Source of the DNA: Clostridiaceae bacterium
GTDB lineage: Bacteria > Bacillota > Clostridia > CAYPLH01 > DUMO01
Assembly (NCBI GenBank): GCA_012839865.1
Contig: DUMO01000022.1
Span: forward strand, 1 to 45,791
DNA length: 45,791 bases
Direction of reading: 5' to 3'
Shown: positions 9,278 through 33,956 of the stretch, in pieces
Numbering within the stretch: the stretch's first letter is position 1
How the letters are laid out: every line of letters starts with the position of its first letter
Notes under the pieces: generated by a model
The model's input: only the letters and a program-made list of their open reading frames with translations
Told to the model about the DNA's origin: nothing
Databases searched by the model: none
Translations under genes and position numbers: made by a program

Positions 9278-9691
9278 ATGAATAAGGCAATTTTAATGGG
9301 GAGACTTACGAAGGATCCCGAACTTAGGTATACACCAAATAATATTCCTGTCTGCACATTTACACTGGCTATTGACAGGCAATTTAAAAAGCAGGGCGAA
9401 GAAGCCCAGACCGATTTTATACCCATAGTTGCATGGAGAAGCACAGCGGAATTCTGTTCAAAATACTTTACCAAAGGATTAAGGGTGGCAGTTGCCGGAA
9501 GAATTCAAACCAGAACATGGGATGATGCCGAGGGTAAAAGACATTATGCCACTGAAGTAGTTGCTGATGAAGTGCATTTTGCGGATGGTAAAAAGGAAGG
9601 CACCCAGAGCGGTTTTCCAGGCATGCCGCAATTTGGGTCTGCAAATAATGATTTTCCTCCAATTGAAGATGACAGTGATCTCCCGTTTTAA
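9278..9691 (+). CDS. ssb: Single-stranded DNA-binding protein
   Basis: 137 residues. OB fold at about 1-105 with the typical start MNKAILMGRLTKDPELRYTP and core WRSTAEFCSKYFTKGLRVAV. A short Gly/Pro-rich linker leads to the acidic C-terminal tip DDSDLPF, which recruits partner proteins in replication, repair and recombination. It lies only 20 nt after the FHA gene with its own GAAAGGA ribosome site, so it is likely co-transcribed with the Tad operon. It lacks the rpsF/rpsR neighbours of the usual housekeeping ssb, so it may be an accessory paralogue, possibly for DNA uptake. Confidence 0.96.
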   Translation: MNKAILMGRLTKDPELRYTPNNIPVCTFTLAIDRQFKKQGEEAQTDFIPIVAWRSTAEFCSKYFTKGLRVAVAGRIQTRTWDDAEGKRHYATEVVADEVHFADGKKEGTQSGFPGMPQFGSANNDFPPIEDDSDLPF

Positions 9692-9746
9692 ATTTCAAAT
9701 ATACAAAAAATCGGCCAATGGCAATATAGCTTAAGTAAGTAAAAAA

Positions 9747-9935
9747 ATGAACAACAGCTCCAATACTGCTAATTGCAGCAAGGTATAGGAAAGCACAGTT
9801 AAAAATGCCTTGGAATCTTAGTAATGTCCGTGCTGCTTGAGCGTAGCGAGTTCACGGAATTACTGGATGACAAGGCATTTTAACTGGCTGTTTTCCTTAC
9901 CAAAGCTGTACTGCGGTATTAGAGCTGTTGTTCAT
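9747..9935. repeat. 189-nt near-palindromic element between convergent genes
   Basis: Left arm 9747-9832, loop 9833-9852, right arm 9853-9935. The arms open with ATGAACAACAGCTC and close with GAGCTGTTGTTCAT, and pair almost continuously with small bulges through CAGTTAAAAATGCCTTG and CAAGGCATTTTAACTGG to an apical GTCCGTG/CACGGA. A stem of about 85 bp is far longer than an intrinsic terminator. It may be a transposase-less miniature inverted-repeat element or a long hairpin RNA. It lies between ssb and the oxidoreductase and could stop both transcripts. Confidence 0.85.
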
Positions 9936-9980
9936 TTATAACTGCCGCTGGACGGCAACCAGTGCTGTTACTTCATTAGG

Positions 9981-11117
9981 CTAATTAACTTTTACCCGCG
10001 CTCCCTTTTTGGACGATTCATATATGGCAAGGACAAGATCCACGCACTTTCTTGCCGACTCACCGGTAATATATGGTACCCTGTTTTCCAGTATGGATGA
10101 AATAAAATCCTCCACAATGAAATAATGGGCTTCAAGGTCAATATTTGCCGGGTCACTGGCCGAGGATACTGCCTCCTTGTCATCCTTGTCCAAAGAAATT
10201 GGTATTACATTATCCCCATCTCTTTTATATAGGGTTGTTTTGCCATCAGCATAGAGTATGGAACCCTTTTCACATTCGATTCTAATCCGGTCGCCTTCAG
10301 GTCCGGTCTCGGGAATATTTGAAATAGTTGTCCCCATTATTACTCCTTTGGCACCGTTTTTGAACTCAAGCAATGCCATGGCGGTATCTTCAACCTCAAT
10401 ATCCCGGAGCAAAGCTCCTGAAATGCCCTGCACATATTCCACTTCTCCTGTCAGCCAGCACATGGCGTCAATTGCATGAATACCCTGGTTCATCAGGCAT
10501 CCTCCGCCGTCCAGTTCCCATGTTCCTCTCCAGGAACCGCTCTTATAATACTGTGGTGACCTGTAACCCCTGTATTGGCACTCTACAATGGTCATTTTGC
10601 CCAACTCCCCGCTGTCCAGGATTTCTTTTGCTTTCCTTAAGCCCGCTCTTGTACGGTTGGGAAAAACAACCCCGAGTTTGACATTGTTCCGTCTGGCAGC
10701 TTCAATCATTTCATCCATTTTTTCTTTTTTAATTTCCAGGGGTTTTTCGCAAAGGACGTGCTTGCCGGCTTTTGCGCTTTCCACCGTGTTCTCACCGTGA
10801 AGCCCGCTTGGAGTGCAGACACAGATCGCGTCAATATCGGCTTCCTTAAGCATTTTTTTATAATCCATATATACTGCATCCACTTTATAAGCCTTTGCAA
10901 AATCCCTCGCTTTTTTTTCGCTGCTTCCCCCACAAACAGCGGCAAACTCAGCTCTTTTGTCCATTTTGATACATTCTGCATGGGATTTTGCAATCAAACC
11001 GCACCCGATAATTCCAAACCTTACTTTATCCAATGAAATCACCGTTACAAGAAACTTATGATGATGTGTTTTTGAGGTTTTCTTATAACGGCCTGCACCT
11101 CCTTTTTTGTTGTTCAT
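9981..11117 (-). CDS. Gfo/Idh/MocA family NAD(P)-dependent oxidoreductase
   Basis: Up to 378 residues. A Rossmann fold starts with VRFGIIGCGLIAKSH (about 32-46) and has the conserved EKP of this family (HVLCEKPLEIKKEK). The C-terminal GFO_IDH_MocA domain carries GGGCLMNQGIHAIDAMCWL, with the usual His of the active site. Substrates in this family are sugars, inositols or related polyols; none can be assigned here. The first 30 or so residues are an extra basic, His-rich leader (KTHHHK), so the true start may be an inner GTG or TTG just before the Rossmann fold. No good ribosome site decides it. It lies 76 nt downstream of the nucleoside kinase on the same strand. Confidence 0.9.
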   Translation of the reverse strand: MNNKKGGAGRYKKTSKTHHHKFLVTVISLDKVRFGIIGCGLIAKSHAECIKMDKRAEFAAVCGGSSEKKARDFAKAYKVDAVYMDYKKMLKEADIDAICVCTPSGLHGENTVESAKAGKHVLCEKPLEIKKEKMDEMIEAARRNNVKLGVVFPNRTRAGLRKAKEILDSGELGKMTIVECQYRGYRSPQYYKSGSWRGTWELDGGGCLMNQGIHAIDAMCWLTGEVEYVQGISGALLRDIEVEDTAMALLEFKNGAKGVIMGTTISNIPETGPEGDRIRIECEKGSILYADGKTTLYKRDGDNVIPISLDKDDKEAVSSASDPANIDLEAHYFIVEDFISSILENRVPYITGESARKCVDLVLAIYESSKKGARVKVN

Positions 11118-13789: not shown

Positions 13790-13805
13790 GTATGGGTCTT
13801 CGCAT

Positions 13806-13884
13806 AAGGGACCAGGGGGATGGTTCTTCTGGTCCCTTGTGGCTTTATAGGAGGGACCACAGGAACCGTCCCTCTGGCCCCTTT
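13806..13884. repeat. Tandem GGGACC hairpin repeats
   Basis: Two adjacent imperfect palindromes: AAGGGACCAG ... CTGGTCCCTT (13806-13838) and GGAGGGACCACAGG ... CCCTCTGGCCCC (13850-13881). They resemble the GGGAC...GTCCC hairpin repeats scattered in many Clostridia. A short ORF across them (13786-14109) is an artefact of the repeats. Confidence 0.7.
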
Positions 13885-13903
13885 GGTTTACATAATATGA
13901 AAA

Positions 13904-32920: not shown

Positions 32921-32942
32921 TCGTATATAACTGAATGAAAAT

Positions 32943-33070
32943 ATAATCTTCAGGGCAGGGTGCAATTCCCGACCGGCGGTAATATGGCGCATGAGCCGTT
33001 AGCCCGCGAGCGAAAGCTGACCTGGTTGGATTCCGGGGCCGACAGTAAAGTCTGGATGGAAGAAGATTAT
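32943..33070 (+). ncRNA. FMN riboswitch (RFN element)
   Basis: P1 stem ATAATCTTC (32943-32951) with GAAGATTAT (33062-33070). The conserved core is present: AGGGCAGGGTG, AATTCCCGACCGGCGGT, AGCCCGCGAGC, GATTCCGGGGCCGACAGT and AGTCTGGATGGAAGAAGA. It binds flavin mononucleotide and lowers expression of the riboflavin transporter downstream. A terminator hairpin follows at 33090, so control is by premature termination. Confidence 0.97.
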
Positions 33071-33089
33071 TGGCGTGTAAAAATGCTAT

Positions 33090-33740: not shown

Positions 33741-33757
33741 TAGCAGAATGAGTAGCA

Positions 33758-33887
33758 GTTCAGACATGGTACTTATAAACCAGCTATTTGGCATAGGTAA
33801 TAGAGTAGCTGAAATGAATGAAATGTATGCAGAAGAATAACAAATGGCTTCTGCATACATTTCATTTTTGCGAAATTATGTCTGAAC
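33758..33887 (+). terminator. Terminator after ribU within a larger inverted repeat
   Basis: The inner stem AATGAAATGTATGCAGAAG (33817-33835) pairs perfectly with 33848-33866 and is followed by TTTG, so it is terminator-like with an unusually long 19-bp stem. It is enclosed by a second perfect 10-bp inverted repeat, GTTCAGACAT (33758-33767) and ATGTCTGAAC (33878-33887). Confidence 0.75.
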
Positions 33888-33956
33888 AGAAGTCAAAGGG
33901 CTGTGGTGTGAGTTTAATGAAACCGTCAAGCCTCTTTAAAAAATATTAACTTCTGC

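Follow-up and report, generated by a model that had tools for sequence, protein, structure and literature searches.

A long intergenic hairpin in a Clostridiaceae genome is probably a decayed member of a MITE-type family

Results

A long hairpin between two convergent genes

The hairpin lies in the gap between ssb and a gene for a GFO/IDH/MocA-family oxidoreductase (Table 1) in the 45,791-nt contig DUMO01000022.1 of the Clostridiaceae bacterium assembly GCA_012839865.1; this whole stretch is referred to here as the window. About 55 bp separate the hairpin from the stop codon of ssb and about 45 bp from that of the oxidoreductase gene. An earlier note, made from the sequence alone, had described a non-coding hairpin flanked by convergent genes. 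Both genes do converge on it, and no ORF of at least 60 aa crosses the hairpin. Its boundaries were placed correctly, and the first base pairs with the last in the minimum-energy fold. The 85-bp stem of that description comprises 78 pairs and is interrupted by several small bulges, and the supposed 20-nt loop folds further into an apical stem of 5 bp capped by 7 unpaired nt.

Table 1. Features of the hairpin locus, in window positions
Feature	Position	Strand	Basis
Palindromic body of one repeat copy	9747..9935	+	183.4 bits, full match to model positions 1-190; 82-85% identity to eight other full-length copies; 78 pairs
Left arm	9747..9839	+	Fold; matches right arm in 89% of paired columns
Apical loop	9840..9846	+	Within conserved GAGCG-AGCGAG segment; fold and alignment
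Right arm	9847..9935	+	Fold
Inner hairpin module (AAAATGCC ... GGCATTTT)	9802..9881	+	Copy searches; position from sequence
Site of the 62-bp inserted module in copies C26, C41b and C41c (module absent in window copy)	9867..9868	.	Alignment
Run of six T directly after the stem	9741..9746	-	Sequence; not called as a terminator by scan
ssb, convergent neighbour	9278..9691	+	PF00436, E 4.8e-37
GFO/IDH/MocA oxidoreductase gene, convergent neighbour	9981..11117	-	PF01408, PF22725

The minimum-energy fold of the hairpin has a predicted free energy of -101 kcal/mol, with 41 A-T, 31 G-C and 6 G-T pairs and 33 unpaired bases. When the flanks are included (9727-9955), the value is -106 kcal/mol compared to -56 ± 4.4 kcal/mol in 200 dinucleotide shuffles, none of which folded as low (z = -11.3). 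For the minus strand of 9747-9935, the value is -89 kcal/mol versus -42 kcal/mol in shuffles (z = -10.9). A transcript of either strand is thus predicted to form a stable stem-loop, as is typical of MITEs. Among 1521 tiles of 190 nt covering the window, the hairpin is the strongest fold, although another repeat hairpin, at about 13800-13890, is nearly as strong.

Dispersed copies in the genome

A nucleotide search of the organism's own genome (2.74 Mb in 89 contigs, 99.98% complete) revealed eight more full-length copies, with the identities given in Table 1, and three further copies in which the right part is displaced by an insert. All copies were aligned in the orientation of the plus strand of the hairpin. 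A covariance model built from 12 copies recovered those 12 together with a diverged copy at C37 (48.8 bits). It also detected derivatives spanning 66-99 nt, namely two 99-nt deletion forms (C41:212400 and C61:33609) and a 66-nt piece at C1, as well as stand-alone relatives of the inner hairpin, 73-80 nt long, at C40:7638-7710 and C11:5021-5100; a few marginal matches scored below these. On reading the sequences of both 99-nt forms, the left arm apparently jumps to the right arm at a common AAGGCAT. In a tree of the copies, the terminal branch leading to the window copy is the longest.

We inspected 18 copies and derivatives with a simple ORF call. They are intergenic, and no convincing gene runs across any of them: the sole spanning ORF is 70 aa long, at C60, and short predicted ORFs of 103 and 137 aa partly overlap the C8 and C26 copies, respectively. 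Their neighbor genes occur in convergent, co-directional and divergent arrangements. With 12 full copies plus derivatives, the element is therefore dispersed, multi-copy and, by this simple ORF call, mostly intergenic, as MITEs are. A single copy without conserved structure, which the earlier note named as evidence against its reading, is not what the genome shows: it holds 12 full-length copies, and their arms co-vary.

Outer ends and target-site duplication

Alignment of the copies with their flanks indicated that in several of them the palindrome is the interior of a larger element ending in RTTANTGTTCAGG. These outer terminal inverted repeats are 13 bp long, and intact copies measure about 245-320 bp. 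Ends were sought as the best match to RTTANTGTTCAGG, with up to 4 substitutions allowed. Nine elements have both outer ends; at 151-318 bp they fall below the 500-bp limit of MITEs, which also lack a transposase gene, and no ORF of at least 60 aa covers the window copy. The palindrome or its deletion form is contained in eight of the nine, and the remaining one, C1:10.4k, has a different interior, which indicates that a single terminal sequence delimits elements of more than one kind. Exact matches to the terminal 12-mer RTTANTGTTCWG number 53 in the genome, compared to 7 for a reversed control pattern, although this form also captures the second palindromic repeat family described below.

The same nine elements, chosen since both of their ends could be found, were used to look for a target-site duplication. 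The 8 bases flanking each element match at 8, 7, 7, 2, 5, 4, 7, 0 and 6 positions. At least 7 of the 8 bases match in four of the nine elements, versus none of 72 cross-pairs from different elements, only one of which reaches 6 matches. When widths from 2 to 12 were compared, 8 alone stood out, with a fraction of 0.64 of positions matching compared to at most 0.39 for the others. In C26, C41a, C8 and C41del, four of the nine elements, no more than 5 bases match. Judged from these alignments, the 8-bp flank match is a target-site duplication that is partly eroded, and the family thereby combines terminal inverted repeats with an 8-bp duplication, both characteristic of MITEs. This count covers neither the window copy, C29a, C29b, C60, C66, C37 and C61, in which no outer pair was recognised, nor a 94-bp element at C40:33743.

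Neither the sequence around the window copy nor its flank alignment displays outer repeats or a duplication. The sub-group nearest to it (C29a, C29b, C60 and C66) shows no clear outer ends of the RTTANTGTTCAGG type, and inspection by eye gave no clear duplication around the copies without ends or around members of the second repeat family. It is by its palindromic body alone that the window copy is assigned to the family, and the simplest reading is that this is an old copy whose ends have been lost. The MITE-like alternative proposed in the earlier note is supported by the many dispersed copies, their common terminal inverted repeats and the 8-bp duplication in other copies. The search that it suggested, for further copies with flanking duplications, thus succeeded elsewhere in the genome, with no duplication seen at the window copy itself.

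Shared modules and related repeats

Copies C26, C41b and C41c contain a 62-bp insert at an identical place beside the loop. Elsewhere the genome repeats this insert some 20 or more times, within a second family of palindromic repeats that measure 64-270 bp and end in AATGAAATGTATGCAGAACA (for example, L158:322-591 and L109:1488-1696). Many members of this second family carry the insert, and no target duplication is evident for them. By sequence comparison, the hairpin element family is modular, with the 62-bp insert common to both families; this modularity and the strong co-variation of the arms are the two respects in which the family exceeds a plain MITE. Copy C78 keeps the inner palindrome in its usual orientation, with the two outer ends exchanged, which amounts to a body inverted within its ends.

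Several other repeats were observed alongside this family. The window contains a second small element at 33754-33897, with inverted ends bearing GTTCAGACAT on both sides, which appears to share its terminal motif in part with the hairpin family; inside it lies a short copy of the second palindromic repeat family (33817-33866, GAAATGTATGCAGAA...TTCTGCATACATTTC). The strong hairpin at 13800-13890 (z = -7.5) is made of GGGACCAGGGGGATGGTTCT / AGGAACCGTCCCTCTGGCCCC, and a related motif, GGGGACGGTTC, is found again at several genome loci, so that this hairpin is probably another dispersed repeat. At L092:1501-1531, two terminal motifs point outward with 7 bp between them (CTGAACAGTAAC-TGCACGG-GTTACTGTTCAA), an arrangement that looks like side-by-side insertions of two elements or a leftover tandem junction. 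The window also carries an FMN riboswitch at 32942-33071 (118.8 bits) and an inverted repeat at 2514-2587, its 35-nt arms separated by a 4-nt spacer, which directly precedes a tRNA gene at 2600.

Co-variation of the two arms

Pairs were counted over 12 copies, leaving aside the C37 copy and the deletion derivatives. Across 74 pairs in 12 copies, 97.3% of the cells are standard pairs, compared to 30-46% in slid controls. Both sides have changed in 20 of the 74 pairs, whereas shuffles give 7.4 ± 1.9 (0 of 500 as high), and parsimony indicates at least 25 pair switches. Agreement between the arms is 0.919 within the same copy versus 0.855 between different copies, and none of 5000 permutations reached the within-copy value.

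The 22 types of two-sided change comprise 14 transitions and 8 transversions. Transversions, which have no G-U intermediate, fit template switching within the palindrome, as does the inverted inner palindrome of C78. Template switching is a described mechanism in palindromes (PMC8794818) and is reported to homogenise the arms of inverted repeats and to invert the spacer as well (PMC8604942). Selection on one strand would make G-U the commoner mismatch; single mismatches on the plus strand are G-U in 18 columns and A-C in 10 (p = 0.09). The co-variation thus fits either template-switch repair or selection on the hairpin, and we lean toward template switching as the main cause of arm complementarity.

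Distribution and search for a driver

The element was found in none of 59 other genomes, the nearest of which belong only to the same class. A wider, less sensitive search, which scored at most two candidates per genome in a set overlapping the 59, found it in none of 390 other genomes of the class. An exact core pattern had no match in genome contigs or viral contigs, and no similar DNA was returned from plasmids queried with the C41a element or from phages queried with the window copy. The closest relative of one window protein, among the matches listed, is from Alkalithermobacter at 52% identity, which suggests a deep clostridial lineage.

Searches of the genome for the transposase families IS66, IS256, IS6 and DDE_Tnp_1 (Pfam) gave no match; all four matched in several control genomes. 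The absence of these families suggests that the driver has been lost, is unassembled or belongs to another family. At C53:112193-113921, two exact ends that face inward and lie more than 1 kb from each other enclose ordinary genes, as named by eye, and the ORFs around seven other end-like sites included no obvious transposase by eye. A text search of the literature for the terminal motif gave, among the titles listed, no paper on transposons, and within the literature searched no description of the family appeared.

Discussion

Comparison with known small mobile repeats

The family has the features that two reviews give for bacterial MITEs (PMC10969869, PMC2229807), the one exception being a known autonomous partner. 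Of the published cases that we found, QMITE2 of Coxiella burnetii is the closest (PMC5896051). As described there, QMITE2 resembles the hairpin family in being about 190 bp long and intergenic, with a transcript predicted to form one long hairpin (-113 kcal/mol for QMITE2). Its full-size copies are surrounded by direct repeats of about 8 bp (7-11 bp), like the 8-bp duplication here, and its smaller or truncated copies without terminal repeats or duplications recall the end-less copies in this genome (PMC5896051). The likeness is one of description. QMITE2 belongs to another host and has a GTAG palindrome targeted by IS1111 (PMC5896051), whereas the present family has the 62-bp module and RTTANTGTTCAGG ends.

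Other small mobile repeats invite similar comparison. The Chunjie MITE of Geobacter uraniireducens is described as 178-235 bp long, with many length variants and conserved terminal and direct repeats (PMC10969869), and again the likeness is by description. RUP, Correia/NEMIS and other such repeats share with the family a non-coding sequence of about 100-200 bp, terminal inverted repeats, a target duplication and long stem-loop transcripts, according to one review (PMC2229807). Many of them have TA at their termini, and RUP has a proposed IS630 partner (PMC2229807), whereas the ends of the present family start with RTTA, its duplication is 8 bp, and no partner was found here among the four families searched. 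REP palindromes with TnpA-REP are also multi-copy (PMC3733652, PMC8266576), but in these accounts they measure 20-40 bp, compared to the 189-bp body here, and the full elements here have an 8-bp duplication. A REP/RAYT system is characterised by a palindrome of that small size bearing a GTAG/CGTC tag, together with a related Y1 transposase, and in size the present family is plainly different.

Nature of the hairpin

We are confident, though short of certain, that the family is a non-autonomous MITE-type DNA transposon of about 245-320 bp, with a near-complete palindrome inside 13-bp RTTANTGTTCAGG ends. Its copies are dispersed over intergenic sites, lack coding capacity, have common ends and, at copies other than the one in the window, are bounded by an 8-bp direct repeat. 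The hairpin between ssb and the oxidoreductase gene is, with equal confidence, a degenerate copy of this element, which has so far been seen only in this genome. A DDE-type transposase encoded elsewhere, on an element that has since been lost or is not in the assembly, would have cut at the outer ends, and the copies would have inserted with an 8-bp stagger. One copy would thus have entered the gap between the two genes and then lost its recognisable outer ends and target duplication while the palindromic body remained. The arms may have stayed complementary either by replication template switching, which copies one arm onto the other, or by selection on the hairpin.

An unlikely alternative is that the inner palindrome spreads independently as a hairpin, in a REP-like, single-strand or repair-based manner, and that the RTTANTGTTCAGG ends belong to another element, which took up the palindrome in some copies. 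This would account for the palindromes without clear outer repeats (the window copy, C29a, C29b, C60 and C66), for the inner 73-80-nt hairpin standing alone at C40 and C11, for the inversion of the palindrome within the same outer ends in C78 and for the different interior bounded by the terminal motif at C1. However, eight of nine two-ended elements hold the palindrome or its deletion form, the 8-bp duplication sits at the outer ends, and end loss in old copies explains the end-less palindromes. Very doubtful, in our estimate, is a more elaborate scheme of a nested modular hairpin element, in which single-strand selection (on RNA or ssDNA) would keep the 78-bp stem, modules would be swapped with the second palindromic family via the 62-bp insert, and the hairpin form would be the substrate for spreading, in a lineage without an assembled driver transposase. 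We also give a low probability to a functional RNA, that is, a stable long-hairpin small RNA or an RNase III processing site with plus-strand pairing under selection. The strong co-variation of the arms and the lean of plus-strand mismatches toward G-U speak for such an RNA, as do the small RNAs that similar-shaped MITE transcripts are reported to yield in Coxiella (PMC5896051), but the G-U excess is not significant and our scan called no promoter-like site there. The copies also occur in every gene context and were not found in any other genome searched, a pattern that does not resemble a conserved RNA gene. No Rfam family reached its gathering score at the hairpin; at E up to 10, there were three matches, all below their cut-offs, with mir-1000 the best.

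The 6S-like alternative raised in the earlier note has next to no chance of being correct. Apart from a general shape, that of a long interrupted hairpin, nothing connects the two: 6S (SsrS, RF00013) is absent from the Rfam matches up to E of 10, the hairpin is multi-copy, and the genome has its own 6S RNA at C83:13088-13302, scoring 94.4 bits against a cut-off of 46.4. An oversized bidirectional terminator for the two convergent genes, which the position of the hairpin and the six T after the stem on the minus strand might suggest, is highly improbable as an identity. Most copies do not lie between convergent genes, no T run follows the stem on the plus strand, and the scan, though built for short simple stems, did not call the hairpin as an intrinsic terminator, which consists of a G+C-rich stem followed by a T run. 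At the window site, the MITE-type copy may nevertheless act as a terminator by chance, and the six-T run could terminate transcripts of the oxidoreductase gene. Most likely, the hairpin either just sits in the gap or ends the convergent transcripts.

These results account for an odd intergenic feature that is easily mistaken for a non-coding RNA gene. They also provide a clear case of a small palindromic transposon in a lineage without a near relative in the genome set searched, and the 12 diverged long hairpins in this one genome form a natural set with which to separate template-switch repair from selection for pairing.
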